IMG/VR virus record: IMGVR_UViG_3300022752_000193
Span: 1-36,615 of that record
Strand: one strand, 5' to 3'
Source: a virus
Length of the DNA: 36,615 bases
The notes below the pieces were generated by a model that had not been told where the DNA came from, did not search any database, and was given only the letters and a program-made list of their open reading frames with translations. A program made the position numbers and the translations under genes. Positions within the stretch are counted from its first letter, which is position 1, and every line of letters begins with the position of its first letter. This document shows, piece by piece, positions 11,697 through 36,615 of the stretch.

Positions 11697-14600
11697 ATGG
11701 CCGTTACTATTAGTTCATACAACGAGATATTAGGAAAACTTGTCCGAAAGATGATAGCGGACACACCCGTGAACGACATAAACAGAGGCTCAGTTCTTCT
11801 AACCCTTCTAGAAGCTGTTGCTGCTCAAGATTTTGAGAATAGTGCAAACATATTAAGCGTACTTGAATCTTTAAGCATTGATGCTCTTAAGAACTCAGAT
11901 TTAGATCAAAGAGCAGCCGATTATGGCCTTACCAGAACACCTGCTTCAAAGGCAACTGGTTTTGTAACTATAAAAGACACATCTATCTCAAAGAGATCTA
12001 CTTCTCTATACGCATTGAAGCAACCGCCTATTGCTGGAGTAACTGTTCTATATGTAAACGACGCCTCTCAGTGGAATGCCTCTGGAGGAAGCTTGTACAT
12101 AGGAAGAGGAACTCAGCAGTTTGAAGGTCCAATTGATTATTCTTCAATAGTCAACAATGGTAGCTTTTATACGATAAATCTATCATCTGCTGTTCAGTAT
12201 GATCATCTTATATCAGACTATGTTGTCGACAAGCAGAATACAATAGATCGTTTCATATCATCTGGAACCGTAGTAAAGATACCTGCAAACAATCAAAATC
12301 CAGAAGTACTATACTCAACATTAAGAGATGCAGTTCTTCCAGCAGGAGAAGACTCAATAAGTGGAATAGCTATAGTTGCAAATCAAGTTGGATCATCTAG
12401 CAATACTGGGATAAATACTATAGTTCAATTTTCATCTTTACCATTTGCAACAGCTTCAGTTACAAACTCAAATGCGCTGATAGACGGCAGAGACACAGAA
12501 TCAGATGATGATTTAAGAGAAAGAATAAAATCTTATACGTCAACTCTAGCAAGAGGAACCAGGGCTTCTATATTAAGCGCAATCATAGGCGTGTCGGATT
12601 CAACAGATGGCAAGCAAGTATCTTCTGCAACAATCACAGAACCAGCTGCTATTGGAGAACCTTCTATAGTATACATAGATGACGGTAGTGGCTTTCAACC
12701 TACTTTTAAAGGTCAAAATGTAGATGTTATTTTATCGTCTGCAACAGGTGGAGAAGAGTTTATACAACTAGCAAACTTTCCGCTACCAAGACCTCAGGTT
12801 GTAAACTTGGCAGACGGTCCTTATTCTTTAGTTGACGAGTCTACTATATCCGTTTTAATCGACAACGCAGAAGAGCAGATAACATTCAAGAGCTCTCAGT
12901 TCAACAACATTGCTGCTGCCACTTTGCAAGAAGTTGCAAATGCTATAAATGATCAGTCAATTAATTTTAAATGCAGATTAACAGAAAATTCAACTCGACT
13001 GTTAATCTATCCAACAAATTACGATGTCGAATTCATACAAGTTGCTCCTCTTTCTTCTGGTTCTTCTTCTGTTCTATATGCAAATTCATATCTAAAGTTT
13101 CCAACTAATAGATATTCATATATAACGCTGTACAAAAATAATACGCTATTGTCTGAAAAAGAATTTCCAGCAACATTGCGAACAATTTCAAAATCAAACT
13201 GGGCGATAATTGGAACTGGCGATCTTACTATTCAAGTAGACGAAACACCAGCTCAAAATCGTTCTTTTACTTCTTTAGATTTCGATGGACAAGCTTTTAG
13301 TGTATTGACAGTATCAGATTGGGTTTCTGCTTTTAACAAAAAATTTGCTGGAATAACTGCAAGCGCAACATCTGCTGATCAGATTGAAATATCTTCTAAC
13401 AAGATTGGATCGGGATCTTCCTTGAAGATTGTTGGTGGAACATACTCTTCTCACATGTTCGCTGGAGCTGACACATATTCAGAAGGAAAGACTTCTGACT
13501 TTGCACTAAATAGACAAAATGGAAATTTACAGTTAAAAGTAAAAATAGAACAAGGTGACACTGTTACAGCTGGATCTGCAGATGCAAAAGGAAATATTGT
13601 ATCTGAAACTTCTACTGGTGTTTATAGTTTGACATCAGATTCATTTGAAAGACCCGCTGAGGCCATTGTAATTGCAGATGGCAATAATACAGTATTTAGA
13701 AGTGAAGTGAATCCAATAATCGGAACAACGATTTCTATCTCAGTTCCTTCGACAGGAAAGATGAAAATAACCTCAAACGTAAGTACTCTTTTCGCTCAAG
13801 CTCAGATTGGCGATTTTGTTTACATATCATACAGAGGAACCGGTTCTTCTTGGCTTAGTTTAGAAAATTGTGGACTGTTTAAGATCTGTAAAAAAGGCAA
13901 ACATACTACAGCAGGTGACGATTCTTGGATAATGGTCGACAACGTAGATGCTGTAGCCACAGCATCTAAAATTGTTCAAGCTTCTGAAGATATACAAGTG
14001 TTCTCTGCGGATTCATATCCACAGATTTGGAAAGGTTCTTATTTAGAAACTCCCGGTGCTGCTACTTTTAAATCTATAAATGATTCTATAAAATTAAATA
14101 TAGAAAATGTAAAAAGTTCTACTTATAAAACCAGCTCGATAAAACTCACCAGCTCTACTGAAAACGATGGTTCTATTGCTGTTCCAGTTTCAGTAGGATT
14201 GATGACAAATCTTTTCCCATCAAAAGGAAGTGCTCAGCTTGGTAATCAGTCTAATATTGCAACAAAAGCAACTCAGAAAGATTTAATAAGTTATTTTAAA
14301 AGAACAGATCATACTTCAGCTTGGTTAGACAGGACTTTGTATTCTGATATAAGAGGATCGCTTTCTTCGAGCTCTGTGCCTCCAATTTCTGGAAGCGGAG
14401 AGTTGTTAAGTTTAAATTCTCTCTTGTTAAATAGCTCCAATATAGATCACGATAATTTAATTAATGTAACTAGTGGTTCTAACAAATCTCAATTTAGAAA
14501 TATAAAAGAATTTCCATCTAGCTCTAGTTTGTACACTCAACCTGAAACACCTAATACTATATTTGATTATCTGTCCAATGATGAATTAAGTATCTTAGAG

Positions 14601-17600
14601 TCTTTAACAATATCTGCAGATGACTCAATAGTGTTTATATTAGATGGAGATGCTGTTAATAAAACTGTTAATGTAAACTTTTGGAGAACTGGAAGAATAA
14701 ATTCTAGTTTTGCTGCAACAAATACTCAATTCTCTGCATATGATTCCGACAACGAACCGGGTATTGATTTTGGGAATGAGGCAATTTGGTCTAAGACAAA
14801 CACAAATACAGAATTTAAAGATTATGCCGTTTGGTTTAGAAGTAGAAACTGGTACAAGACAGATTCAGACAATGCGGGCATGATAATTCGTGCTAAAGAA
14901 TACGGACCAATTGGAGATAAATACGGATTCAAAATAGAATATCCATCTTTACCAAATCAATCAGCTTCTATAAAACACTTCAATACTTCAAGTAAAACAC
15001 TTGTAACATATGCGTTTGCGAGCAGTGACCTAATTCCTACTGGAATAACCGGTGGAACTAATTTTTCAGTTAAGAATATATCTAGTAATGATTATAGATT
15101 AAAGTTCAAAGAAACCTATGTAGATTTTTCTTCGTTAAATCCAGAAAATGGAGACATAATAGCAATAACAGATCCCAATGTTTCTTCTGGAAATAGAGGT
15201 ATTTTTAGAATCAATGCTTTTGATGCCGTGAATAGAACAGTTGATATAACAAACGCTGATGCAGTTGTGTCAGACGAAGGGTCTCCTCAATCGTATACGG
15301 TAACTACAACACAAGATATTGTTGGAACACCGGGAAGCATAACCATCACGTGTACAGCTCAGGGCTCTACTACTAGCACGGTGGGAAGCGGTGATTATTT
15401 TGTGCTTAGAGATAGATATGGTAATAAAATTGTCTTTTGGTATGCTATAGACAATGTAGGCTCGCAGCCAACACTTACAGGTATTTATCAATATATAAAA
15501 ATAGGAACTGTAATAACGGGAGCAAGCGCTGCAAGTGTTGCTAGCGCAACTGCAAACATCGTAAACTCAGCTTATCCAGATTTTACCGCTAACTATACCA
15601 GTGGCAATAGTTTTAATGTTATTAATAATTTCAATGGACCAGTTACTTTAGATACTAGCGGAGACTCTTCTACAGGTTTTACTTACAGTAAAGTAGATGG
15701 TGCTTCAAACAACACATTAGGTGGTAAATATTTCACCATACATGACACAAATGGAAGTGTTGCAGTTTGGATGAATGTGTACGGAGAAGCAGAGCCTATT
15801 CATGGAGAAGATAGATCTATACAGATCGTGATTCCCGCAGGAAGCTCAGCAAGTAGTGTTGCAAACTTAATTAAACTTTCTTTGGACGCAGATTCTAAAT
15901 TCGATGCAACAGTTGCATCTAATGAAGTTACTATAAATAATATTGAAAATGGTTTGCTTTCAGCTGGAAATGCTCAAACCTCTGGCTTCACTGTTTCAAC
16001 AGCTCAAGCCGGTGTTGACGATGAGTATGAAACAATCTCATCTGCTCCAGGCATCAAAGTATTTCCATTAATAGAAAATGATTGCCAAACGATAGCAACA
16101 TATATAACACAAAATTCTTCAGTAATAAATGCAGTTCCAATTACTGGTTTAAGTTCTGGTAAATTTACAAAGATCACAAAAGAAGAAACATCGCCAGTTG
16201 GCTATGGACATTCTGTTGGAAATTCTCAGATAAATCTGTTTGACGGCGAATCTTTTGTAAAAACCTTCAGCAATGTGAGTCCACATTTTACATTAAAAAA
16301 ACAATTAACATTGCAAAATCAATCATCCAATTATGACATGAGAACATGTCCAAACTCAGATACGGGTGATCTTGGTGAGTTTTTCAAACTCCTCCCTAAG
16401 ACAGTTAAAAATGTAAAACATCATCTAAGTCACAAAGCGCTGTCTCAACTTCCAATTGTTGCAGATGTAGATATTTCTAATAAGTTTAGAAGGGTTCAGA
16501 TAAAGTCTAAGAAACTTGGAACATCTGGATCTGTTGAGGTCGTTGGTGGAAGGGCTAATTTAGGTGAGTTTAGTATATTCGGAGATGCTCAAGTATCTGA
16601 TGGCACGATTGAGATAAAAACCTCTGCATATCCTTCTACCATAAACACCGGTGACTTGGTAAGAATATATAATGAAAAACCAGCAAAAAGATTATCTAGA
16701 TTGAAGTCAACAGACACTATTGACGTTGAGATATCTACAAACAATGACACTGAGTATGTATTAAATAAAAAACAAATCAATTCTAGCTATTTCACATCTT
16801 GGAAAGTGACAGACGTATCTGCCTCTACGTATGGTGTTCAGCAGGGCACAGTGTGGAGATGGGAGCACAACGAAGCAGGTGGAAGTGTGCAGATAACATC
16901 TACATCAAATGGAGTAGTATCAACTCTTCCAAATGAATATCCTTCTAGCGGATCGACTCCTGGAACTACTGCACTTGAGGTTTTTAATATTTCAAATGGA
17001 ACAGCTAGTACTAAATTAACCTTTAATATATCTGTAAACAGTGTTCCTAATCAAGGTGATTATTTTACGTTTCAAAATGAATTAGGTTATAGTTTTGCAG
17101 TTTGGTTTTCTATTAACGCAAACTCAACGCAGCCAAATGGAACACCTTACACAAGTGCAACAAATAAAATAAGAGTTGATGTACTAAGTACAGATACTCC
17201 AAATACTATTGTTTCTGCAATACAATCCGCATTAGTTAATGCTGGTACTACTTTTTCATATAAATTCATATCTTCTCAGAAATCAGCAACTAGTTTAGAA
17301 GATGTTTCGCCTGGCGATGTTTTGGGTGTTTGGGGAGATGGTTCTGGTTTCATAACTAATTTTAACATAAGAAACCAATCTCAATTAACGGGTGATGGTG
17401 AGATTTCTAATTTTCCAATTATAGCAGTAAATGCTCAACAAAGATACATCGACGTTGTGAATCCAAATGGAGTTGCAGTTTCTTCATTTACGATGCCAAC
17501 CACAGGTGGCAATGTAGAAGTTTTTCCATCCATGGGGATTAGATGGAGAACAAAAGATACATCTTATATTTATATAAAAAACATCACAGTTTCAAGTGGA

Positions 17601-19133
17601 ATTGCAACTGCTTTAACCGATGTCTCTCATGGATTTGGATTAGGGGAAGTTGTACAGATATCTGATTGCGCAAACACTAATCTAAATGGAAATCAAACTA
17701 TAACTGAAACTCCGGGCATTTCCTCTTTTAAATTCTCAACTTCAGCAGCAGATGGAGCATATACTGGAGCTGTTGCTTTAAAATCTGAAAAAACAAGAAC
17801 AAGATACAAGATAGAAAGTTTAGGTTTTAATAGTTTAGTAAGAATAAGTAGAACAGATGGAGATAGTCCTTATTTTACAGACTGCGGCATTGCTGTTGAT
17901 GATTATGTAAAAATAAGTGGATCTACTTTCTCATCTGTAAACAATGGCTTCTTTAGAATTTTAGCTATAGATAATAATTCATTTATAATTGAAAATCCAA
18001 ACTTTAAAGAAGAGTTGAACACATTCAAGAAAATAAACAATTTAGATACTCCAGTTATATGGCAGGCCAATGCAACCCAAGTAACAGGTGTTGCGGGTTG
18101 TTTTGCAAATCTGTCTTTAGGGGATTGGGTAAAGAAAAAAGAAGACGAAAATGATTATCTAGTTCAAGTAATAGGATTCAACACTGGAGATCCTTTAACT
18201 GCTACTTCGATTACAATTGGCTCTAGATATCGCGGATCCGATTCCGCTTCAGAGGGTGTTGCTTTAGATCAAGAAAATGACATAGGAAAAGGTATTTATC
18301 TTGACAGCAAAGACGATTTCATCTTCTATTCAGCGGATTCTGTTGTTGCTGGAGATTCTTTAATAATAGATAATCTGTCAAATCCGACTTGGTTTAAGAC
18401 ATCTAATTCTGGTGTTTTTACAATAAAAGAATATGGAACAAAACCAAATTCTAAATCACAATTTGTCAGAGTATATAATTCGGGTGCTGTTTCTCAATCA
18501 GGTATTAGCTTGTCGTCTAACGAAGATGGTTTTTATATACTTGAAAACGAAAACTATAAGTATGAATCTATAAGATCAGTAGAACATGCGGCTATAAATG
18601 AATTCAACGTAAATCAAAGAGTTTTGTATTTAAAACCAATTCATCAAGTGAATAAAATAAGTGATCTATATGGATCGAAGATACAGTCATTAGGCAAATT
18701 AGGTTTTGATGTCGGAGTAACATCTGGCGTAGATGGATATGTCTATTACACGGGTCTCATGCAAACTGTTCAGAGAATTATAGATGGACACGAACCAGAT
18801 GCAGCCAGTTATCCGGGAAGAAGGGCAGTAGGATCTTTGATAGAAGTTCTTCCTCCTTTGATCAAGCCAATAGAAATAACTATAGATGTAACTACTAGAG
18901 ATGGTATAAACTTAACAGATATATCCAATGATATAAAGTCAACCATAATCAATTATATAAACTCATTGGGAGTTGGACAAGATGTTATTCTTTCTGAGAT
19001 TATAGCAAGAGCAATGTCTATAAATGGAGTAAATGCTGTAACATTTACAAATCCAGCTCCGACAAATGAAAGAATTGCCATAGACGATGATCAGAAAGCA
19101 TTTATATCACCAGATCTTATAAGCTTGTCTTGA
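11697..19133 (+). CDS. Giant baseplate J-like wedge protein
   Basis: 2478 residues from ATG 11697, with AAGGGTGAG upstream. The N-terminal region is a normal baseplate J domain: LVRKMIADTPVNDINRGSVL, ALKNSDLDQRAADYGLTR, and the hallmark NALIDGRDTESDDDLRERI near residues 257-275. The normal J C-terminus is at about 2385-2478 (IEITIDVTTRDG, ILSEIIARAMSINGVNAVTF). Between them lie about 2000 residues of beta-rich insertions, against 350-650 residues for the whole protein in simple phages. Insert modules include VGG motifs at 574-583 and 1612-1621, three copies of a YF-x-VWF-type domain (about 1233, 1344, 1788), and FCCH-like beta modules near 1965-2103. J-like proteins (T4 gp6 group) form the wedge ring that opens on contraction. 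The insertions probably decorate the baseplate surface. Confidence 0.85.
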   Translation: MAVTISSYNEILGKLVRKMIADTPVNDINRGSVLLTLLEAVAAQDFENSANILSVLESLSIDALKNSDLDQRAADYGLTRTPASKATGFVTIKDTSISKRSTSLYALKQPPIAGVTVLYVNDASQWNASGGSLYIGRGTQQFEGPIDYSSIVNNGSFYTINLSSAVQYDHLISDYVVDKQNTIDRFISSGTVVKIPANNQNPEVLYSTLRDAVLPAGEDSISGIAIVANQVGSSSNTGINTIVQFSSLPFATASVTNSNALIDGRDTESDDDLRERIKSYTSTLARGTRASILSAIIGVSDSTDGKQVSSATITEPAAIGEPSIVYIDDGSGFQPTFKGQNVDVILSSATGGEEFIQLANFPLPRPQVVNLADGPYSLVDESTISVLIDNAEEQITFKSSQFNNIAAATLQEVANAINDQSINFKCRLTENSTRLLIYPTNYDVEFIQVAPLSSGSSSVLYANSYLKFPTNRYSYITLYKNNTLLSEKEFPATLRTISKSNWAIIGTGDLTIQVDETPAQNRSFTSLDFDGQAFSVLTVSDWVSAFNKKFAGITASATSADQIEISSNKIGSGSSLKIVGGTYSSHMFAGADTYSEGKTSDFALNRQNGNLQLKVKIEQGDTVTAGSADAKGNIVSETSTGVYSLTSDSFERPAEAIVIADGNNTVFRSEVNPIIGTTISISVPSTGKMKITSNVSTLFAQAQIGDFVYISYRGTGSSWLSLENCGLFKICKKGKHTTAGDDSWIMVDNVDAVATASKIVQASEDIQVFSADSYPQIWKGSYLETPGAATFKSINDSIKLNIENVKSSTYKTSSIKLTSSTENDGSIAVPVSVGLMTNLFPSKGSAQLGNQSNIATKATQKDLISYFKRTDHTSAWLDRTLYSDIRGSLSSSSVPPISGSGELLSLNSLLLNSSNIDHDNLINVTSGSNKSQFRNIKEFPSSSSLYTQPETPNTIFDYLSNDELSILESLTISADDSIVFILDGDAVNKTVNVNFWRTGRINSSFAATNTQFSAYDSDNEPGIDFGNEAIWSKTNTNTEFKDYAVWFRSRNWYKTDSDNAGMIIRAKEYGPIGDKYGFKIEYPSLPNQSASIKHFNTSSKTLVTYAFASSDLIPTGITGGTNFSVKNISSNDYRLKFKETYVDFSSLNPENGDIIAITDPNVSSGNRGIFRINAFDAVNRTVDITNADAVVSDEGSPQSYTVTTTQDIVGTPGSITITCTAQGSTTSTVGSGDYFVLRDRYGNKIVFWYAIDNVGSQPTLTGIYQYIKIGTVITGASAASVASATANIVNSAYPDFTANYTSGNSFNVINNFNGPVTLDTSGDSSTGFTYSKVDGASNNTLGGKYFTIHDTNGSVAVWMNVYGEAEPIHGEDRSIQIVIPAGSSASSVANLIKLSLDADSKFDATVASNEVTINNIENGLLSAGNAQTSGFTVSTAQAGVDDEYETISSAPGIKVFPLIENDCQTIATYITQNSSVINAVPITGLSSGKFTKITKEETSPVGYGHSVGNSQINLFDGESFVKTFSNVSPHFTLKKQLTLQNQSSNYDMRTCPNSDTGDLGEFFKLLPKTVKNVKHHLSHKALSQLPIVADVDISNKFRRVQIKSKKLGTSGSVEVVGGRANLGEFSIFGDAQVSDGTIEIKTSAYPSTINTGDLVRIYNEKPAKRLSRLKSTDTIDVEISTNNDTEYVLNKKQINSSYFTSWKVTDVSASTYGVQQGTVWRWEHNEAGGSVQITSTSNGVVSTLPNEYPSSGSTPGTTALEVFNISNGTASTKLTFNISVNSVPNQGDYFTFQNELGYSFAVWFSINANSTQPNGTPYTSATNKIRVDVLSTDTPNTIVSAIQSALVNAGTTFSYKFISSQKSATSLEDVSPGDVLGVWGDGSGFITNFNIRNQSQLTGDGEISNFPIIAVNAQQRYIDVVNPNGVAVSSFTMPTTGGNVEVFPSMGIRWRTKDTSYIYIKNITVSSGIATALTDVSHGFGLGEVVQISDCANTNLNGNQTITETPGISSFKFSTSAADGAYTGAVALKSEKTRTRYKIESLGFNSLVRISRTDGDSPYFTDCGIAVDDYVKISGSTFSSVNNGFFRILAIDNNSFIIENPNFKEELNTFKKINNLDTPVIWQANATQVTGVAGCFANLSLGDWVKKKEDENDYLVQVIGFNTGDPLTATSITIGSRYRGSDSASEGVALDQENDIGKGIYLDSKDDFIFYSADSVVAGDSLIIDNLSNPTWFKTSNSGVFTIKEYGTKPNSKSQFVRVYNSGAVSQSGISLSSNEDGFYILENENYKYESIRSVEHAAINEFNVNQRVLYLKPIHQVNKISDLYGSKIQSLGKLGFDVGVTSGVDGYVYYTGLMQTVQRIIDGHEPDAASYPGRRAVGSLIEVLPPLIKPIEITIDVTTRDGINLTDISNDIKSTIINYINSLGVGQDVILSEIIARAMSINGVNAVTFTNPAPTNERIAIDDDQKAFISPDLISLS

Positions 19134-25178: not shown

Positions 25179-26879
25179 ATGGCTAACGATTTTTATAAAA
25201 TAAAAAGTGGCTTAAATATACCAACCTACCCTGATTTAGCATCAGCAAATGCTATTCCAAATTTAAAACAAGGTGATGCAGTAACTATAAATGGAATAGT
25301 TTATGTATACAATGGAACCGGATGGATTGGAGCAAGTGTTTTATCCGTAAATACAAAAACTGGAGATGTTTCTTTAACAACTGCAGACGTTCCAGAAGAT
25401 ACAACACCTGGAACTACACGTTTGTACTATTCAGACAGTAGAGCAAAAGCGGCAGCTGTTGTAAATACAACAACTGGTTCTGAAACTGATCAAGCAGCTT
25501 CTGTTCAGGCTGTAAAGAACTATGCAGTAGCAAAAACTGGAAGTGCAGTTTCTGGAAATATAACTTTCGCAAATCAAACTGGCATAGAGTCTACAGTTGA
25601 CAATTCTGAACTTAATATTGGAACCACACCCTATTCACATAAAGTCAACATTGGAACTGGCGATCATACTTCTGAAATAAATATAGGTACTGGAACGGGT
25701 GTTTCTACTATAAACATCGGACAAACTGGAGACACAGTCAACATTAATGGCAGTGTTAACTATATTGGTGTTACTAATTTAAATGTTGCAGATAAAGATA
25801 TAAATTTAAACGTTGGAGGCGTTGCTGGATCTGGAAACAGCGCCGGTGTACATATTGAAGAAGGTGGTTCGATAACTGGTTTTGTTCATGTTGGTAATTC
25901 TAGAAATAGCTGGGAGATAAAAGCACCCAACAAACCTGGAACAGTTCAAATAACACCACCAAGTAATTCTTCTAATATTGAAATAGTATCTCAAGCTACT
26001 TCTAATAGATCTATCTCAATACCTGATGCAGATGGGACTGTTGTTATTTCTTCTGATGGAAATAAAATAACATCAAATCAACTTCCTACTAATTTTTCAA
26101 CAGCAAATGTCCCAGAAGACACAACACCTGGAACCACGCGTTTGTACTATTCAGACACTAGAGCTAAAACAGCAGCTGTTGTAAATAGTACAACAGGCAT
26201 TCAGACTGATCAGGCGGCGTCTGTTCAAGCTATGAAGAACTATGTAGTGCCGGCAACAGATAAAGGCGCCGCATCTGGAGTCGCTACATTAAATAGCAGC
26301 AGTCAACTAACATCTACTCAATTTCCAGATTCCATATCAAAAACATTAGTAGTAGAAGCTTTTGGTGGAATTGGTGGATCTATAAGATTAAAAGAAAATG
26401 GCGGATCTAATTATGTTGCGCTAAAGGCTGCAGATTCTCTTTCTGTAGACACAACCTGGACACTTCCTGTTAGCGATGGAACAGTTGGACAAGTTTTAGC
26501 GACAAATGGAACTTCTGCTTTAGAGTGGAGAACTAGCGGAACAATTGCTCCCACTGATACAGTAGCAGCAGCAGGGTATGCTTTGAATCCAAGTTCAGTA
26601 AACACAATAACTACTTCATACTTAATGTCTTCACTTGACAATGGAAGAGTAATTATTGCAAACAGCTCTTCTTCGCTTAATATAACTATTCCTACAGGAT
26701 TGCCGGTTGGTTTCAACTGTGTAGTGATTCAAGTTGGAAGCGGGCAAGTTTCAATGGTCGCAAGTGGAACAACTTTAAATTCAGTAAATGGTTTAAAGAT
26801 ATCTGCCCAGCATGGAAGTTTATCTGTAATGTCATATGCAGCAAATGTTTTTAATATTTCTGGAAATACTACTTTTTAA
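25179..26879 (+). CDS. Tail fibre protein with duplicated segment
   Basis: 566 residues from ATG 25179 with AAGGAAG upstream. The N-terminus (MANDFYKIKSGLNI, then TINGIVYVYNGTGWIGA) is a fibre-head pattern. Residues 68-115 and 308-355 are a 48-residue segment in two copies, 41 of 48 identical, beginning with VPEDTTPG and containing RLYYSD. This is a variant of the fibre module often seen as xVxEGSTNLYFTDxRA. Between the copies is a regular run of short strands (KVNIGTGDHTSEINIGTGTG, STINIGQTGDTVNING), consistent with a trimeric beta-helix shaft. The C-terminus (NITIPTGLPVG, MSYAANVFNIS) has the LP-containing strand pattern of many fibre tips. Expected to be a homotrimeric fibre attached to the baseplate. 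Confidence 0.75.
   Translation: MANDFYKIKSGLNIPTYPDLASANAIPNLKQGDAVTINGIVYVYNGTGWIGASVLSVNTKTGDVSLTTADVPEDTTPGTTRLYYSDSRAKAAAVVNTTTGSETDQAASVQAVKNYAVAKTGSAVSGNITFANQTGIESTVDNSELNIGTTPYSHKVNIGTGDHTSEINIGTGTGVSTINIGQTGDTVNINGSVNYIGVTNLNVADKDINLNVGGVAGSGNSAGVHIEEGGSITGFVHVGNSRNSWEIKAPNKPGTVQITPPSNSSNIEIVSQATSNRSISIPDADGTVVISSDGNKITSNQLPTNFSTANVPEDTTPGTTRLYYSDTRAKTAAVVNSTTGIQTDQAASVQAMKNYVVPATDKGAASGVATLNSSSQLTSTQFPDSISKTLVVEAFGGIGGSIRLKENGGSNYVALKAADSLSVDTTWTLPVSDGTVGQVLATNGTSALEWRTSGTIAPTDTVAAAGYALNPSSVNTITTSYLMSSLDNGRVIIANSSSSLNITIPTGLPVGFNCVVIQVGSGQVSMVASGTTLNSVNGLKISAQHGSLSVMSYAANVFNISGNTTF
25380..25523 (+). repeat. Direct repeat copy 1 in fibre gene
   Basis: 144 bases encoding a 48-residue segment (residues 68-115) that recurs 720 bases downstream with 41 of 48 identical residues. 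Many of the differences are synonymous at DNA level, so the duplication is old enough to have drifted or is under codon-level change. Confidence 0.8.
26100..26243 (+). repeat. Direct repeat copy 2 in fibre gene
   Basis: Second copy of the 144-base segment (residues 308-355), exactly 720 bases after copy 1, so in the same frame. It marks a repeated shaft unit. Confidence 0.8.
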
Positions 26880-26896
26880 AATGGGGAAATATAGAA

Positions 26897-29800
26897 ATGT
26901 TCTCTGTCCCTACTTTACATGGAAATTTAAGTAAGCAGCTATTTTTTCCTTTTGCAAATTTGCAAATAAATGGAACTACCTACGCTCAGGTTCAAGATTC
27001 TGATTATTTTTATATTGGTGGTAGTTTTTCAACAGTAACAGATATTGGAAATATAAAATCAAGAAACGGAACTGTTCTAGATAAAACAACTGCATTATTC
27101 CCTTCTGCGTTCTTAAGATCTTATTTCAATGGTGCTGTTTATTGTTCTGTAGTAGATGGTGATTATATATATGTTGGTGGTGGTTTTGCTTCCTACAATG
27201 ATGCAACTGTAAATGGTGTTGCTAAAATACACATACCAACTGGTCAATTAGATACGTCTTTCAAATTATTTTCTGGTATTAGTAATGTTTATTCATTGGC
27301 GATAGATGGAGATAATTTATACATTGGCGGAGCAATTAGTCTATATAATGGAAAATCTCGTCAGGGTTTGATAAAAATAAATAAAAACACAGCAGAAGAA
27401 GTAGATGCAGATGGTACTGGTTTTAGTACTACTAGTGGATTCAATGCTCAAGTTAATTCTATGATAATAGACGGAAACAATCTATATGTAGGTGGACAGT
27501 TTACTGCTTACAAAGGTTTAACTAGACAATGTATAGTCAAAATAGATAAAACCACTGCTGCAGAAGTAGATACTAATGGAACTGGCTTTAGTACCAATAA
27601 TGGATTTAGTATTTCAGGAACTGCTCAAGTTAATTCTATGACAATAGACGGAAACAATTTATATGTAGGTGGTTATTTTAGTTCTTATAAGTTAAACCTT
27701 AGACAACATATAGTCAAAATAGATAAAACCACCGCTGCAGAAGTAGATACTAATGGAACTGGCTTTAGTACAACAAGCGCCTTTGGATCCACTGGTCAGA
27801 TAAATTGCATGGTATTGGATAACAATAATCTATATGCTGGTGGACAGTTTACTGCTTATAAAGGTGTAGCTAGACAATTTATAGTCAAAATAGACAAAAC
27901 CACTGCTATAGAAGTAGATACCAATGGAACTGGTTTTAGTACCACTAGTGGATTTAGTAGTTATGTGTATTCTATGGTCTTAGATGGCAATAGTTTATAT
28001 GTAGGTGGTAATTTTAATACTTATAAAGGAAACACTAGGCAGCGTATCGTAAAAATAGACAAAACAACTGCTGCAGAAGTAGATGCTAGTAGTAGTGGAT
28101 TTAGTACTACTAGTGGATTTAGCAATGCAGTTAGAACAATTTCTTCTTACAATGACAAAGTATATCTAGGTGGTGATTTTTCAAATTATAAAAATGATAG
28201 CTCTTTTACTGGAATCTGGAATTTGTTGAAGATATCCAAAAAAGGTTCTATAATCAATACTTTTAATTCGAATATAGCTGGCAATAATGGCGTATCAGCT
28301 GGTTTTCCAGTTTATTCTCTTGCTTTAGATGGTAACAATCTATACGTAGGCGGTAGTTTTACTACTTATAAAGGAAACTCCAGATCCCGTATTATAAAAA
28401 TAGATAAAACTACAGCCGCAGAAGTTGATGCAGACGGCACTGGTTTTAGTACTGCTAATGGATTTGATTCTGATGTTAAGCTTATGACAATAGATGGAAA
28501 TGCTATTTATGTAGCAGGTAGTTTTTCAAATTATAAAGGAACAAGCCAGAATTTTTTGGCTAAAATAGATAAAAACACTTCACTGTTATTGACAAGTTTG
28601 CCCGAAGATATTATTTTTAATAAAAATTATCCAAATGGTTATATTAATTCATTAGCAATTGATTCTAATAGTGTTTATTTAGGCGGTGGCTTTACATCCA
28701 TAACAAATAATTTGACTTCAAAATCCAGTCGTGGATCCTTGATAGATAAAAATGATGCATCTTTAGTTTCATCTGTTAATAGATCTTATTTCAATGGTGC
28801 TGTTTATTGCTCTGTAGTAGATGGTGATTATATATATGTAGGTGGTGCTTTTACTACTTATAACGATACTTCGGCAAATCGAATAGCAAAAATATACATA
28901 CCAACAGGTCAGTTAGATACTACTTTTAGTCCAGGAACTGGATTTAATTCATATGTATCTTCAATGATTTTAGACGGCAACAATCTATATGTGGGTGGTA
29001 ACTTTACTACTTATAAAGCAAATGTTAGACAATATATCGCAAAAATAGACAAAACAACTGCTGCAGAAGTAGATGCAAATGGAACGGGTTTTAGTACTGC
29101 TAGTGGTTTTAATAATGAAGTTAGTTCTATGGCAATAGATGGCAATAATCTATACGTAGGTGGATTTTTTACTTTTTATAAAAGTCTTACTAGACAACGT
29201 ATCGTAAAAATAGATAAAACTACCGCCGCAGAAGTGGATACAAATAATACTGGTTTTAGTACCACTAGTGGATTTAATGGAACAGTTAAATCTATATCCA
29301 TAGTAGACGAGAAGCTTTATATTGCAGGTTCTTTTACCTCCTATAAAACGACAACTAATTTAAGCGGTTTTTATAAAATAAATCTTTCTTTAAAAAACAT
29401 ATCTCTTTTTGACAATTCTGTTTCTTGTTCAATAGTGGATGGTGATTATATATATGTGGGTGGTAGCTTTAGTACTTATAACAATATTACAGCAAATCAA
29501 ATAGCAAAAATATACATACCAACAGGTCAGTTAGATACTACTTTTAACACAGGTTCCGGATTTAATTCCGGCATAACCTCAATGATCTTAGACGGAAACA
29601 ATCTATATGTAGGCGGTAACTTTACTACTTATAAGGGTCTAACTAGACAATTTATAGTCAAAATAGATAAAACCACTGCTACAGAAGTAGATACCAATGG
29701 AACTGGTTTTAGTACCATTAGTGGATTTGATTCCGGCGTATCTTCAATGATCTTAGACGGAAACAATCTATATGTAGGTGGTTATTTTAGCACTTATAAA

Positions 29801-32800
29801 ACAAAAAACAGACAGGGTATTGTAAAAATAGACAAAACAACCGCTGCAGAAGTAGATGCAGATGGTACTGGTTTTAGTACTACTAGTGGATTTTATTCAA
29901 GCGGTTTTGCAGCTGAAATTTATTCTATGATTTTAGACGGCAACAATCTTTATGTAAGTGGTTATTTTACAACTTACAAAACAAAAAACAGACGATATAT
30001 AGTTAAGATAGACAAAACAACCGCTGCAGAAGTAGATGCAGATGGTACTGGTTTTAGTACTGCATGGAGTCTTTTAAATGGTTTTAATTCTTATATCTAC
30101 TCAATGGTCTTAGATGGAAACAATCTATATGTAGGTGGTAATTTTACTACTTATAAAGGTTTGAATAGATACTATGTCGCAAAAATAAATAAAACCACCG
30201 CCGCAGAAGTAGATGCAGATGGTACTGGTTTTAGTACTATTAGTGGATTTGATAGCAATGTATATTCTATGGCGTTAGACGGCAGCAATATGTATGTAGG
30301 TGGTAATTTTACAACCTACAAAGGCAATACTAGACAACGTGTTGTAAAAATAGATAAAACAACTGCTGCAGAAGTAGATACTAGTGGAACTGGTTTTAGT
30401 ACTATTAGTGGGTTCGACAATACTGTTTATTCGATAGTGATAAGTAACAATAATCTTTATGTAGGTGGTCTTTTTAATACTTATAAATCATACGACAGCA
30501 TCAATCGATTCGTGAAGATAGATAAAAATAATGCAAATCCATTTTTCACAAGTTCAATGAATGCTAAAAATTACAAGATTTTAAAAGATGCATCGCCATC
30601 ACCTAGCGCTTTGTATACTCAAGGTTCTGTTTATGATATGAAAATAAACTCTGATTCTATCTATATAGCTGGTGATTTTGACGTGATTGGAAATGCGACT
30701 GAATCAAGATCTTTTAAGGGAACTGTTGTAAATAAAACAACTGGAGAAATTTTTTCTAGTTTAATAAGATCTAATTTTACTAATTCAAATAATTATTCAG
30801 ATGGTAATGAAAATATTTATTGTTGTGTTTTAGATGAAAATTACGCGTATGTTGGCGGTTCTTTTAATTACTACAATGGTGAATATGTTGGAAATATAGT
30901 TAAAATAAATTTAATAGACGGAACTAGAGATACTAATTTTATTTTAAGTTTATCAGGCGGAACAGGAGGAATAACTTCAGTTACATCTATTGTTTTAGAT
31001 GGCAGCTCTATATATATGTGTGGTGACTTTGAATATGCGAACACATCTAGTGGTGGATACGGTGCAAAAAGAATTATCAAAGTAAATAAAACAACTGGGG
31101 CTGTAGATTTTAATTTTAATACTTTAACTGGTTTTGATTCTAATTATGGAATTCCTTATTACTTAAATTTTGATTCTAGCTATGTATATGTAGGTGGTAA
31201 TTTTACTAGATACAAAAATACACAAGTAGAAAATTTTATAAAAATAAACAAAAATACAGCAGAATACATTGTAGATAGCGCTAGTAAAAATATATTTTTA
31301 TCAAACCTATCACGAAGTGTTAGATCAATAGAGACAGATAGCGATTTCATATATGTGGGTGGTGATTTTAAATACACAGACACCTTGGACAACACAAAAA
31401 CACTAAGAGGATCTTGTTTAGATATAGACACTCTTTCTGCTAATTATTCAAATACAAAATCCACAATATCAAACATTGCCTTCAACGGAACAGTTACCTG
31501 TTCAATAATAGATGGTAACGATTTGTACGTAGGTGGTTATTTCACCATGTACAACGGTGTTGTTAGAAATAAAATAGCAAAAATAAATTTAACAACTGGA
31601 GCATTGGATACAACTTTCGATCCTGGTGATGGATTTGGTCCTTTGTTAAACAGTGTTAAAATAAACTCAATGATAATAGATGGAAATAATTTATATGTAG
31701 GTGGATGGTTTACATCATATAAAGGAAAAAGTAGAGGTGGACTTGTAAAAATAAGTAAAATAACTGCTGCAGAGATTGATGCAGATAATACTAATTTTAG
31801 TATTACTAATAGTTTTACTGCATTAGGAACAACTGCTGAAATTTGTTCTATGATCTTAGATGGCAATAATTTATATGTAGGTGGTTTTTTTAATGCCTAC
31901 AAAGGTCTTACTAGACAACGCATCGTAAAAATAGACAAAACAACTGCTGCAGAGGTTGATGCAGACGGCACTGGTTTTAGTACTACTAGTGGATTCGATA
32001 GCTATGTATATTCTATGATCTTAGACGGAAACAATCTATATGTAGCTGGTAATTTTAGTACATACAAAAGTCTAACTAGATATTTTATAGTTAAGATAGA
32101 TAAAACTACTGCTGCAGAAGTAGATGCAAATGGTAGTGGTTTTAGTATTGCTAGTGGATTCAATAACTCTGTTTATTCAATGTTGTTAGACGGAAGCAAT
32201 CTATATATAGGTGGTGCTTTTACAACTTTTAGAGGATCTACTCGGCCTGGTTTGGTTAAAATAAACAAAACAAACGCAACAGAAGTAGATGCAAATGGAA
32301 CAGGTTTTAGTACAGATCTTGGTTTTAATAATGCATATGTTTATTCAATGGCACTGAACGGAAACAATCTATACGTAGGTGGTACCTTTACTAGTTACAA
32401 AGGTTCGACTAGATCATATCTAGTAAAGATTAATAAAACAACAGCTTTAGAGGTTGATGCTAATAATAGTGGTTTTAGTGTAACGAACGGATTCAATGGT
32501 CAAGTTTCAACACTAGCATTGAGTGGTACTAGTTTATTTGCAGGTGGTGGATTTGTTGTTTATAAGCCTGTCTTTAATTTCAACATAAATAAATCAAATA
32601 TTGTTAAAATTAATAAAACAACTGGCATATTAGACTCTTCTTTTAATGTCAATTCTTTCACATCTCCTGTATATGATATAAAAAATAAAGACACTGATCT
32701 TTATATTGCATATTCAAATGGAATTAGTAAAATAGATAAAACCACTGCATCAACTATTTATGATAAATTTACAGGCTATGAGGTAAATAAAATAGCAGTA

Positions 32801-33889
32801 GATGACTTATATATATATGCAGTAGGAAGATTCTGGACTGTTGGAAGTACAAGTGCCAGAAATATTGTAAAAATAAATAGAACAAATTATACAATAGATA
32901 CGGTTTTTAACAACAACAATGGATTAAGATGTGGTGTTGGTTATGCTATAGATGTAAATTCTACAGTCATATATGCTGGAGGTTCTTTTATCAATTATGG
33001 AAAAAGTGAAAGAATATTAAAAATAAATAAGAACACTGAAACTATAGATACTAATTTTAACACTAGTTCTGGTTTTAATAATTTCACAAACTCAATTGCA
33101 TTGGACGGCAACAATCTATATGTAGGCGGTAACTTTACTACTTATAAAGGCTTAACTAGACAATATATCGCAAAAATAGACAAAAACACCGCTGCAGAGA
33201 TTGATGCAGATGGCACTGGTTTTAGTACTGCTATTGGATTTGGCAATCAAGTGAGATCATTATCGATTAACACATATGGACTAAGTGTTGGTGGTGATTT
33301 TACTTATTATAAAGACGATGCTGGATTTAGAAACTACGTAGCAAAAATTAATAAAACAACTGGAAAATTAGATTCTATTTTTAACACTTCTTTAACTAAT
33401 GGATTTAATAATCAAATCAATTCTATGATCTTAGACGGAAACAATCTATATGTAGCTGGTAATTTTAGTACATATAAAGGCAATACTAGACAATATATCG
33501 CAAAAATAGACAAAAACACCGCTATAGAAGTTGACACTAGTGGAACTGGCTTTAGCACTATCAGTGGATTTAATAATCAAATTAATTCTATGGTATTAGA
33601 TGGTGATAATTTATATATAGGTGGTACATTTACCAGTTATAAAGGATCATCTGCCAAAGCACTGGCTAGCGTAGATAAAAACACAGCTACTTTAAGCAGC
33701 TCCTTTAATACATCTATAGGTTTTAATAGTGGAGCAACTGTTTGGTCAATAGGCATAGATTCTTATAAAGTATATGTTGGTGGAAGTTTTACTAGTTACA
33801 ATAATCAAAATATAAGTAATTATGTTTTTATAGATAATAAAAATGCTCTTATATATAGTAAAAGAGTTAGTTTGGGAGGGAATTCCTAA
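26897..33889 (+). CDS. Giant delta-60 (DUF5122-like) beta-propeller repeat protein, probable adhesin
   Basis: 2330 residues from ATG 26897, with GGGGA upstream. Nearly the whole chain is about 42 copies of a unit of roughly 55 residues: SMILDGNNLYVGGNFTTYK, then R-x-IVKIDKTTAAEVD, then GTGFSTTSGF. This fits the delta-60 / DUF5122 repeat, known in large surface proteins and predicted to fold as propeller blades. Forty-two is a multiple of 6 and 7, so several complete propellers are possible. Units with SRG or SFKG and a following CSVVDGDYIYVGG (around units 1-2, 11-12, 15-16, 23-24, 27-28) mark higher-order blocks. There is no signal peptide and no enzyme motif. Lying between fibre genes, it is likely a virion adhesin or baseplate decoration; a binding partner is unknown. 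Confidence 0.75.
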   Translation: MFSVPTLHGNLSKQLFFPFANLQINGTTYAQVQDSDYFYIGGSFSTVTDIGNIKSRNGTVLDKTTALFPSAFLRSYFNGAVYCSVVDGDYIYVGGGFASYNDATVNGVAKIHIPTGQLDTSFKLFSGISNVYSLAIDGDNLYIGGAISLYNGKSRQGLIKINKNTAEEVDADGTGFSTTSGFNAQVNSMIIDGNNLYVGGQFTAYKGLTRQCIVKIDKTTAAEVDTNGTGFSTNNGFSISGTAQVNSMTIDGNNLYVGGYFSSYKLNLRQHIVKIDKTTAAEVDTNGTGFSTTSAFGSTGQINCMVLDNNNLYAGGQFTAYKGVARQFIVKIDKTTAIEVDTNGTGFSTTSGFSSYVYSMVLDGNSLYVGGNFNTYKGNTRQRIVKIDKTTAAEVDASSSGFSTTSGFSNAVRTISSYNDKVYLGGDFSNYKNDSSFTGIWNLLKISKKGSIINTFNSNIAGNNGVSAGFPVYSLALDGNNLYVGGSFTTYKGNSRSRIIKIDKTTAAEVDADGTGFSTANGFDSDVKLMTIDGNAIYVAGSFSNYKGTSQNFLAKIDKNTSLLLTSLPEDIIFNKNYPNGYINSLAIDSNSVYLGGGFTSITNNLTSKSSRGSLIDKNDASLVSSVNRSYFNGAVYCSVVDGDYIYVGGAFTTYNDTSANRIAKIYIPTGQLDTTFSPGTGFNSYVSSMILDGNNLYVGGNFTTYKANVRQYIAKIDKTTAAEVDANGTGFSTASGFNNEVSSMAIDGNNLYVGGFFTFYKSLTRQRIVKIDKTTAAEVDTNNTGFSTTSGFNGTVKSISIVDEKLYIAGSFTSYKTTTNLSGFYKINLSLKNISLFDNSVSCSIVDGDYIYVGGSFSTYNNITANQIAKIYIPTGQLDTTFNTGSGFNSGITSMILDGNNLYVGGNFTTYKGLTRQFIVKIDKTTATEVDTNGTGFSTISGFDSGVSSMILDGNNLYVGGYFSTYKTKNRQGIVKIDKTTAAEVDADGTGFSTTSGFYSSGFAAEIYSMILDGNNLYVSGYFTTYKTKNRRYIVKIDKTTAAEVDADGTGFSTAWSLLNGFNSYIYSMVLDGNNLYVGGNFTTYKGLNRYYVAKINKTTAAEVDADGTGFSTISGFDSNVYSMALDGSNMYVGGNFTTYKGNTRQRVVKIDKTTAAEVDTSGTGFSTISGFDNTVYSIVISNNNLYVGGLFNTYKSYDSINRFVKIDKNNANPFFTSSMNAKNYKILKDASPSPSALYTQGSVYDMKINSDSIYIAGDFDVIGNATESRSFKGTVVNKTTGEIFSSLIRSNFTNSNNYSDGNENIYCCVLDENYAYVGGSFNYYNGEYVGNIVKINLIDGTRDTNFILSLSGGTGGITSVTSIVLDGSSIYMCGDFEYANTSSGGYGAKRIIKVNKTTGAVDFNFNTLTGFDSNYGIPYYLNFDSSYVYVGGNFTRYKNTQVENFIKINKNTAEYIVDSASKNIFLSNLSRSVRSIETDSDFIYVGGDFKYTDTLDNTKTLRGSCLDIDTLSANYSNTKSTISNIAFNGTVTCSIIDGNDLYVGGYFTMYNGVVRNKIAKINLTTGALDTTFDPGDGFGPLLNSVKINSMIIDGNNLYVGGWFTSYKGKSRGGLVKISKITAAEIDADNTNFSITNSFTALGTTAEICSMILDGNNLYVGGFFNAYKGLTRQRIVKIDKTTAAEVDADGTGFSTTSGFDSYVYSMILDGNNLYVAGNFSTYKSLTRYFIVKIDKTTAAEVDANGSGFSIASGFNNSVYSMLLDGSNLYIGGAFTTFRGSTRPGLVKINKTNATEVDANGTGFSTDLGFNNAYVYSMALNGNNLYVGGTFTSYKGSTRSYLVKINKTTALEVDANNSGFSVTNGFNGQVSTLALSGTSLFAGGGFVVYKPVFNFNINKSNIVKINKTTGILDSSFNVNSFTSPVYDIKNKDTDLYIAYSNGISKIDKTTASTIYDKFTGYEVNKIAVDDLYIYAVGRFWTVGSTSARNIVKINRTNYTIDTVFNNNNGLRCGVGYAIDVNSTVIYAGGSFINYGKSERILKINKNTETIDTNFNTSSGFNNFTNSIALDGNNLYVGGNFTTYKGLTRQYIAKIDKNTAAEIDADGTGFSTAIGFGNQVRSLSINTYGLSVGGDFTYYKDDAGFRNYVAKINKTTGKLDSIFNTSLTNGFNNQINSMILDGNNLYVAGNFSTYKGNTRQYIAKIDKNTAIEVDTSGTGFSTISGFNNQINSMVLDGDNLYIGGTFTSYKGSSAKALASVDKNTATLSSSFNTSIGFNSGATVWSIGIDSYKVYVGGSFTSYNNQNISNYVFIDNKNALIYSKRVSLGGNS
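26990..33850 (+). repeat. Tandem array of about 42 delta-60-type units
   Basis: Units were counted by their LYVGG-like core. Unit length is about 165 bases, with variation of tens of bases. Some units are close to identical at DNA level: 32010-32064 equals 33420-33474 over 55 bases. A 54-base stretch near 29830-29885 recurs near 30008-30062. Other units are degenerate (near 32690-32740). Recent copying or gene conversion is likely, and read assembly here deserves care. Confidence 0.85.
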
Positions 33890-34089
33890 TGTTAAAAATA
33901 CTATACTCAAGAAGAACATTGATTGCAGTAGTATCAATGACTTATCTACTTGTACTTGGACTTGTTGTCAAGGCTGATGTAGTAGGTGCTTTAGTTATAG
34001 TGTCTACTTCATTGGCACTTGGAAATGCAGCAGAAGGCATATTCAGCCAAGTCCCCAACAAGCAAAAATCAAATAAAGAATTAGAATAA
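33889..34089 (+). CDS. Small two-helix membrane protein, holin-like
   Basis: 66 residues. Its ATG overlaps the previous stop by one base (TAATG), and a GGGAGGG ribosome site (33875-33881) lies in the end of the propeller gene. Residues 1-10 are basic (LKILYSRR). Residues about 11-27 (LIAVVSMTYLLVLGLVV) and 31-48 (VVGALVIVSTSLALGNAA) form two membrane segments with a short turn KAD. The tail is polar and lysine-rich. Size and topology fit small phage holins that open the inner membrane at lysis, but no endolysin gene is visible. It could instead be another small membrane-active protein. No family motif is recognised. Confidence 0.5.
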   Translation: MLKILYSRRTLIAVVSMTYLLVLGLVVKADVVGALVIVSTSLALGNAAEGIFSQVPNKQKSNKELE

Positions 34090-34192: not shown

Positions 34193-36615
34193 ATGACAAT
34201 TAAGAATAAGTTAGATAATCGCCAATCTCGTCAAAGAGAAAAACTTGATCAAGTAAGTGAAGATTTAGATCTTCGTCTGGATTCTATACTTAATCTCATA
34301 AATGATGAGCTAACACCGCCTATTAGATTAAGAGCTGATACTCCAGCAACTAGAACAGTTTATGTAGATTCTAATATTGTGCAGACTTTTGATTCTACTA
34401 ATTCAACCGGTCATAAACGACAAAGATCTATTCCACCTTTTCAAGATAAGATTCCCACTTTTACAGGCGGTAGTTTTACAATACCAAGTACAAATGGCGG
34501 AACTATTTCTGGAACAATTCTTGATCAATCCTACACATTAACCATAACGGTTGGTAATTTTAGAAAAATGATCTTATCTTTAAATTCAGATGGTAAGATC
34601 ATTTTATCTTTTGGAGCTCAGAGTACAATAGAAAGTACTGCAACTCTACCTGCCTTAGGTTCTAATACTTTTCCAATTGGGATGATTGTTTTAAAGAATG
34701 AAGGTGGAACAATAAGAACTGTTTCAAACGAACATATCTATCAGTTTACTGGAAACACAAATTCTGGTGCAGATGTAAATATAATTAGAGTAACAAAAAA
34801 TAATCATGGATTTGTAATAGGCGAAGTCCTATATTTAGATTCCTCTGGTGTTTATCAAAAAGCAAATGCATCAGCATCAAATACATCAAATGTTATTGGA
34901 ATGGTTTCTAAAGTTGTAGATGTAAATACGTTTGAATTAACTACAGATGGTCAGGTTTCAAACATAGGCATAGGCTCTATTCAAGGATCATTAGTAGGTG
35001 GGACTAAATATTTTCTAAGCAATACAGACGGAAGAGTATCTACTTCTGCTCCAACAGTTGTTGGACAGATGAGTGTTGAGCTTGGAACTGCTATAAACGC
35101 AACAACGTTTGCAATATCTCCAAAACTTGGTCTAACAGTAGGTCAGGTAAATCTTCTTCCAAATCTTAGAACTCAAATAGTTTTAAATGGTTCTGCTGGT
35201 AGTTCTCAGACTACTTTGATACAGAACGTATTAAGCTATGAAGCAGGCGAAGTAGTTGGATGGGTTTATTTAAACGCAGATGTTGATTATAGATTTTATA
35301 TCCAAGCTCAGTTTACTAAGAATGCAGCCGCAACAGATTTCAACATCTCTTACCAAACCTCTGGAGAGACGCCTCCAGCTGGTTTTTCTATGAACATTAC
35401 CGCAGCAGGTAATATCAATATTGTTCTTCCTAGCATGACGGGCTGGGTGAGTGGATATTTAGTATATGCACTAAATGCACCTGCACTTGGAACTTCTTTT
35501 CCATTGGCAGTAAATCAATCAAGTGTAAATTCTAACTATAGAGAGATATCTACAAGCACAACATTGACAGATTCAGATTACATGGTAGTTGCTACTGGAT
35601 CTAGTAGCTTGATTGTTACGCTTCCAGCTCTTTCTGGATCTGGAAAGAACTATGTTGTCAAATCATTATTGACGTCTGGAACGGTTACAGTTCAAACAAC
35701 CGGCGGCGTTTTGATAGATTCTGCTTCGACTAAAGTTCTTCAATCTGGAGAATATCTAGAGGTAACAAGCAGCACTACAAAATGGATTGCAGATTACAAC
35801 GCCGCCTTTGCACTTCCTTCTGGAGCTGGGACTAGTAATCAGTTAGTGAAATCAAATGGAGATGGAACATCATCTTGGACTTCTAGTATTAATGTAACTG
35901 GAGCCAATGTTTCTGGATTAACGGCCTCTAGAGCAGTTCAAACAGATGCTAGTAAAAATTTAGTAAGCGCAGATTTTGCTTTACCAGTTGGAGCCGGAAC
36001 ACTTTTAAATGTATTGTCTTCAAACGGTAATGGTACTTCGTCCTGGGTGACTCGTCCAAAGATTAGAAAGCAAGAATTCACATCAAATGGAAGCTGGACT
36101 TGTCCAGCTGGCGTTGATACTGTTTTTGTATTTGGATGTGGAGGAGGTGGTGGCGGTGGTCAATGGGTTTCTGGAAACGCCACTGGTCCACAAGGAGGAG
36201 GTGGATCTGGTCTTCAATCTTACATAGTATCTGTAACTTCAGGAAACTCTTATTCGATAACAATTGGATCAGGAGGAGCGGCGAACGGTGGAAATGGAGG
36301 CTCTTCTATCTTTGGATCTTCTTTGGCAGTTTTTCTTGGCGGAAAAGGAGGTTATTCGAGATTTTGGCAACCAAACGGTACAGCCGGAGGTGGAGATGGT
36401 GGAATGGGTGGAAATTGGGAAATTGCTTTAAGTGGCGGTGGAAATAGTAATGGACAAAATGGCCAATCAGGTTTTAATTCTACTGGTGGTATTGGTTCGA
36501 ATGGTAATTTTAGCATAGAGTCAGGTGGAGGTGGTGGAGGTGGTTATACTGGATCCGGTGGAAATGGTGCATACACTTATTACGCAGGTGGTGGCAGTTA
36601 TACTTATACTGCAGG
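34193..36615 (+). CDS. Tail fibre protein with glycine-rich tip (runs off the window)
   Basis: Open frame of 807 codons from ATG 34193, without a stop before the window end. Residues 1-40 are a charged, coiled-coil-like start (DNRQSRQREKLDQ, SEDLDLRLDSILN). An FCCH-like module is near 196-256 (RVTKNNHGFVIGEVLYL). Residues about 455-532 form a common fibre module (LTDSDYMVVATGSSSLIVTL, then GEYLEVTSSTTKW). Two related linkers follow (ALPSGAGTSNQLV and ALPVGAGTLLNVL). From about residue 623 the chain reads FTSNGSWTCPAGVDTVFVFG, then glycine runs, matching the glycine-rich domain of fibre tips (polyglycine-rich host-recognition tips such as those of S16-type gp38). It is likely the receptor-contacting end. 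The C-terminus and any chaperone domain are outside the window. Confidence 0.8.
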   Translation, partial: MTIKNKLDNRQSRQREKLDQVSEDLDLRLDSILNLINDELTPPIRLRADTPATRTVYVDSNIVQTFDSTNSTGHKRQRSIPPFQDKIPTFTGGSFTIPSTNGGTISGTILDQSYTLTITVGNFRKMILSLNSDGKIILSFGAQSTIESTATLPALGSNTFPIGMIVLKNEGGTIRTVSNEHIYQFTGNTNSGADVNIIRVTKNNHGFVIGEVLYLDSSGVYQKANASASNTSNVIGMVSKVVDVNTFELTTDGQVSNIGIGSIQGSLVGGTKYFLSNTDGRVSTSAPTVVGQMSVELGTAINATTFAISPKLGLTVGQVNLLPNLRTQIVLNGSAGSSQTTLIQNVLSYEAGEVVGWVYLNADVDYRFYIQAQFTKNAAATDFNISYQTSGETPPAGFSMNITAAGNINIVLPSMTGWVSGYLVYALNAPALGTSFPLAVNQSSVNSNYREISTSTTLTDSDYMVVATGSSSLIVTLPALSGSGKNYVVKSLLTSGTVTVQTTGGVLIDSASTKVLQSGEYLEVTSSTTKWIADYNAAFALPSGAGTSNQLVKSNGDGTSSWTSSINVTGANVSGLTASRAVQTDASKNLVSADFALPVGAGTLLNVLSSNGNGTSSWVTRPKIRKQEFTSNGSWTCPAGVDTVFVFGCGGGGGGGQWVSGNATGPQGGGGSGLQSYIVSVTSGNSYSITIGSGGAANGGNGGSSIFGSSLAVFLGGKGGYSRFWQPNGTAGGGDGGMGGNWEIALSGGGNSNGQNGQSGFNSTGGIGSNGNFSIESGGGGGGGYTGSGGNGAYTYYAGGGSYTYTA

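Follow-up and report, generated by a model that had tools for sequence, protein, structure and literature searches.

A tail-fibre cluster of a metagenomic phage encodes a 42-blade delta-60 protein that is best read as a chain of six seven-bladed propellers

The window, by which we mean the whole 36.6-kb IMG/VR virus record analysed here, is a metagenomic fragment that contains a phage tail module. Genes for a tail tube, a tube initiator, a sheath initiator and a baseplate J-like wedge protein (11697-19133, + strand, assigned by profile matches) lie upstream of the gene under study, with the tail-tube and sheath-initiator matches falling below the Pfam cut-offs. This set of genes makes a contractile tail most likely, and a close relative of 83.6 kb (G004) carries a tail-sheath gene and has a contractile tail. 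The same relative encodes a GroEL-like chaperonin (L097 1571-3295; PHROG 5725, E=1.5e-94) near genes of the PHROG "DNA transfer protein" family and a DnaE-type DNA polymerase. Judged by baseplate J, the nearest named phage is Myxococcus phage Mx1 (29%).

Downstream of the baseplate genes follow, in this order, gp700, gp1280, a 566-residue fibre-like protein (gp566; 25179-26879, +; phrog_21978), the propeller gene (26897-33889, +), a small hydrophobic protein of 66 residues (33889-34089, +) and a tail-fibre gene with a glycine-rich distal domain (34193-36613, +; PF21722, by profile matches) that runs off the window. The propeller gene thus sits in a tail-fibre cluster and is embedded in the tail module, with the same direction and short gaps: gp566 ends 17 bases before it, a purine-rich stretch (GGGGAAA) precedes its ATG, and its stop codon overlaps the start of the 66-residue gene (TAATG). 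No long frame is found on the opposite strand, and a pattern scan returned no relatives of the 566-residue protein.

The propeller gene is a complete open reading frame of 2330 codons for amino acids. Its product matches the Pfam family DUF5122 (PF17164) with E=4.8e-64 and 212.7 bits, far above the gathering score of 27, and 11 of its stretches are individually significant; a search with this profile was the check proposed in a preliminary description of the locus. PHROG 5490, a family annotated as of unknown function, matches in 14 stretches along the chain (E=5e-195), the best of them spanning positions 25-328 of the 382 in the profile. Motif anchoring gave 42 units of about 55 residues each, mostly 50-60. 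A blade profile built from the protein's own units found 42 domains between residues 23 and 2322, and an iterated profile of about 930 blades, mostly those of relatives, again found 42, the largest count among the stand-alone phage proteins we collected. Unit 1 starts after only 21 residues, and unit 42 reaches the final residues of the chain, so that the preliminary description (about 42 delta-60 repeats, some 25 residues before the first and almost nothing after the last) proved accurate.

A misassembly is unlikely to account for the 42 copies, because no exact DNA repeat within the gene is longer than 55 bp and even the closest unit pairs reach about 86% DNA identity; moreover, a 14-blade relative has the same length in four contigs from four different IMG/VR datasets (L015-L018). 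A fifth contig (L019) stops inside the gene for this relative. Blades take up the whole protein sequence from residue 22 onward, and no stem or trimer-forming region could be seen in it, as the preliminary description had noted for the tip. Most fibre tips have a trimerisation region; having blades only and no stem, the propeller protein is best compared with the trimeric fibre families as working like them, not as a member. Its sequence also does not begin like a signal peptide, as that of an exported host-surface protein would.

Ring size was judged from the blade totals of relatives drawn from viral contigs and bacterial genomes, counted with the iterated profile. In the set of 56 complete phage and bacterial relatives, from which near-duplicates and the window protein itself had been removed, the total was a multiple of seven in 47 cases against 8 expected (binomial p ~4e-31, a nominal value given that the counted proteins share kinship, although the same regularity is seen across phages and many bacterial phyla). 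At a stricter threshold the figure was 43 of 54, and multiples of 5, 6, 8 or 9 were rare. Complete phage relatives, the window included, have 7, 14, 21, 28 or 42 blades and bacterial relatives 7, 14, 21, 28 or 35; complete proteins with a single set of seven blades exist. The window total of 42 is itself a multiple of seven. Since the totals of the relatives come in sevens, the counts strongly favour six seven-bladed propellers for the 42 blades. The other arrangement that the preliminary description had allowed, seven six-bladed propellers, was rejected, as multiples of six occur in just 1-3 of about 56 relatives, depending on the threshold. The sevens rule for DUF5122 blade totals is strong and easily checked, and it gives the ring size without a solved structure.

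Grouping the motif units by seven places the six putative propellers, all on the + strand, at units 1-7 (residues 22-405, 26960-28111), 8-14 (residues 406-790, 28112-29266), 15-21 (residues 791-1170, 29267-30406), 22-28 (residues 1171-1582, 30407-31642), 29-35 (residues 1583-1956, 31643-32764; unit 35 is short, at 38 residues) and 36-42 (residues 1957-2330, 32765-33886). These boundaries are provisional, since the only positional signal was weak: the least typical blades occupy positions 1 mod 7 with p ~0.05-0.07 when sets are pooled and 0.44 for the window by itself, too little to set ring boundaries from atypical blades.

Structure models support a propeller fold class. An AlphaFold model of units 1-21 from a loosely aligned set (pLDDT 67, pTM 0.41) was uninformative as a guide to rings. 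For units 8-21, which cover the second and third putative propellers, a set of 39 alignment rows in register gave pLDDT 80 and pTM 0.52. The top PDB matches of this 14-unit model are propeller proteins, led by the periplasmic sensor BT4663, which we take to consist of two seven-bladed propellers; its matches run along the whole model with TM 0.36-0.46, and the best TM against single rings is about 0.6. Among the BFVD matches are a Phabio virion structural protein and a phage protein that carries the annotation "Delta-60 repeat". In a published modelling study of DUF5122, a homology model agreed with a contact-based model (TM 0.82; PMC8078820). A literature search for "delta-60 repeat" found nothing. 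The structure prediction suggested in the preliminary description thus favours propellers, yet the open solenoid that it had named as the contrary outcome is left standing by the models alone, given the poor 21-unit model and a TM of only about 0.45 between the 14-unit model and two-propeller proteins; the case for closed rings comes from the blade counts.

Within the window protein, blade similarity carries no period-seven signal, and marker blades recur at about units 1-2, 11-12, 15-16, 23-24 and 27-28. Blades are more alike within one phage than between it and its relatives: the nearest neighbour lies within the same phage for 60 of 94 blades, against 36 +/- 5 in shuffles. The clearest internal duplication in L015 (9632-10160 versus 10442-10970, 81%) is offset by five blades. 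Growth by copying of whole propellers was rejected on these grounds, and copying so appears to act on single blades or odd-sized blocks. As the internal duplications do not come in steps of seven, the total of 7n is probably kept by selection for ring closure. The array would then grow through recombination among similar blades, with selection holding the totals at values at which every ring closes.

The same irregularities, together with the low global scores of the structure models, could be taken to mean that the 42 blades make up an open superhelix, or rings with other blade numbers, rather than six closed seven-bladed rings: marker blades that return at units 1, 11, 15, 23 and 27, and a similarity matrix with no period of seven, are what such an array might show. 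An open array would, however, tolerate any number of blades, whereas multiples of seven are far commoner among the relatives' totals than chance would give, and complete proteins with just seven blades exist; we consider this arrangement very unlikely.

The slot held by the propeller gene varies between phages. In L015-L018 the gene order is identical, and the slot holds a 782-residue protein with 14 blades. The L015 neighbours are 74% (gp700), 65% (gp1280), 61% (gp566), 80% (the 66-residue protein, in the same place) and 60% (the glycine-rich fibre) identical to those of the window, and the propeller proteins are only 45-52% identical, below the 60-80% of the flanking proteins. In a further phage (L014 4187-11557), two tandem delta-60 genes with 28 and 14 blades, again 42 in total, follow a collagen-like, coiled-coil-like fibre gene. 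When the window proteins from baseplate J onward were compared by tblastn with the 20-kb L014 locus, only the propellers and the last 105 fibre residues matched; baseplate J, gp532 and gp700 had no match anywhere in the 57-kb L014 record, which is possibly incomplete. Within the shared locus, the L014 phage therefore appears otherwise unrelated to that of the window. The C-terminal 110 residues of the window fibre protein (26547-26876, +) are 78% identical to the L015 gene, and the last ~105-110 are about 51-53% identical to the end of the L014 collagen-like gene. Because only these parts match between the window and L014, the data point to the fibre end and the propeller gene behaving as one cassette.

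The propeller proteins of the window, L014 (both genes) and L015 also share an N-terminal pattern, MF[ST][VI][PS][ST][LM][HR]GxxSK, present in 4 of 4 and at none of the other gene starts searched in these loci. In the window it falls in residues 1-21 (MFSVPTLHGNLSK..., 26897-26959, +), a candidate docking peptide. Most simply, the peptide would dock on the C-terminal end of the upstream fibre, whose last 110 residues would be the partner domain. Such a docking pair would not be general: by hhalign, the fibre-end domain of the window, L014 and L015 has no detectable relation to the ends of fibres encoded next to other phage propeller genes, and the idea of one fibre-end domain common to all phages with a stand-alone propeller gene was dropped.

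Stand-alone DUF5122 propeller genes with 7-28 blades recur among phage fibre genes, and propeller genes have fibre-gene neighbours in several unrelated phage groups. Other arrangements were also seen. A 631-residue phage protein (L003 9224-11116 and L002 1398-3290) has about 300 non-propeller residues followed by seven delta-60 blades, is encoded directly before what looks like a tail-sheath gene and is read as a fusion of a propeller to a probable tail-completion or neck protein; a second gene in one of these records (G001), on the other strand, encodes 543 residues with seven blades. Stenotrophomonas jumbo phage RAS14 has four tandem large "hypothetical protein" genes (L099 3117-12696), three of them with Thr/Pro-rich ends and the last two with about six or seven well-scored delta-60 blades each, behind other sequence. 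A 153-kb phage record (G009, the L039 record) holds a 21-blade gene and a second delta-60 gene, an 855-residue frame at 92172-94217. In the 14-blade proteins of L020, L021, L043 and L023 the first strand of blade 1 is missing, and those of L020, L021 and L023 end in a solitary first strand (e.g. GFNAAVASII), as though one ring were closed by the two chain ends, in which case the second propeller would be an insertion in the first. These four proteins begin with MFTPFAF or similar and the Leptospira phage protein with MFLPFAH.

We propose, with a probability of about one half, that the window protein is a six-propeller rod or string that most likely serves as a virion adhesin at the end of a tail fibre. 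In this proposal, six seven-bladed beta-propellers in a row would form the rod or string, and the conserved N-terminal peptide would dock it on the C-terminal domain of the preceding gene's fibre, so mounting it on the particle. The six propellers would present repeated, individually weak faces to glycans of the host surface, and the valence of six would give grip. Given the phage propeller precedents, the position in the fibre cluster, the cassette and an N-terminus free of export signals, we regard a multivalent fibre-tip adhesin as the best explanation. A more tentative idea, which we hold with clearly less than even confidence, is that valence follows from how many whole propellers there are: blades would recombine freely and only 7n arrays would survive, giving steps of 1, 2, 3, 4 and 6 propellers, mounted on a constant fibre-docking cassette that is passed among unrelated phages. 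The natural series of 7, 14, 21, 28 and 42 blades suits a study of disc number versus phage adsorption.

The same six-propeller chain might instead be attached elsewhere on the virion, at the neck, the sheath or the baseplate rim, and act as a decoration or as an adhesin on the side of the particle. The 631-residue fusion, with its gene directly before the apparent sheath gene, would fit such a place, as would the propeller genes of L031, L032, L036 and L043, which lie between fibre-like genes and a sheath-like gene. In the lineage of the window, however, the gene lies between fibre genes, and the fibre end alone is shared alongside it with another phage, and we consider side attachment rather unlikely here. 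A non-virion protein of the infected cell, for instance one secreted or exposed as a block to receptors or to other phages, seems to us distinctly improbable: the N-terminus has no export signal and the gene lies inside the tail module, in the same direction and with short gaps, although the same blades occur in bacterial relatives that are large proteins, some of them with extra regions beside the blades, and many large bacterial proteins of this blade type would be surface proteins. Nothing was found in favour of the surface shield offered in the preliminary description. Its interpretation is thus partly supported: the adhesin part gains from the gene context and from the cassette shared with L014, while "new type" goes too far, given how DUF5122 genes recur in phages.

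The repeat of the window protein is the same as that of DUF5122/delta-60 (PF17164), which Pfam describes as a beta-propeller with no function assigned. PHROG 5490 and a 381-residue protein of Leptospira LE1-type phages belong to the same sequence family; the latter is a stand-alone protein of seven blades, one propeller against six in the window, and its gene lies directly after another gene on the same strand. Mx1 has a 982-residue protein (L012 23766-26714) directly after baseplate J, a likeness by annotation only, as it is annotated as kelch and not DUF5122; it is possibly an analogue from a different propeller family in the same place.

T4-like adhesins of the gp38 type are separately encoded proteins at the fibre tip with a glycine-rich fold. 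The window propeller gene resembles them in being a separate gene downstream of a fibre gene, with a product proposed to sit on the fibre end, but the gp38 fold is glycine-rich and unrelated, and in the window it is the neighbour at 34193-36613 that has a glycine-rich distal domain. Propellers have been established or proposed in host-recognition or baseplate proteins of other phages, including phi11 Gp45, a five-bladed receptor-binding protein, PRD1 P2 and the C-terminal domain of phiKZ gp131 (gp131C), a seven-bladed propeller at the baseplate periphery (PDB 4GBF; PMC4901313). The comparison with phiKZ gp131 and phi11 Gp45 concerns only how they work, as a PDB sequence search with the propeller protein returned no relatives; moreover, Gp45 has one propeller per chain and a stem, whereas the window protein would string six together in a single chain with no stem.

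No function is assigned to DUF5122 proteins, and this holds for their phage family PHROG 5490 too. Both the repeat family and its representatives in phages were already known, and the window gene is a large variant and not a new category. What is new here is the putative single chain of six propellers, a slot whose occupant changes length by multiples of seven blades, and the cassette formed with the fibre end.
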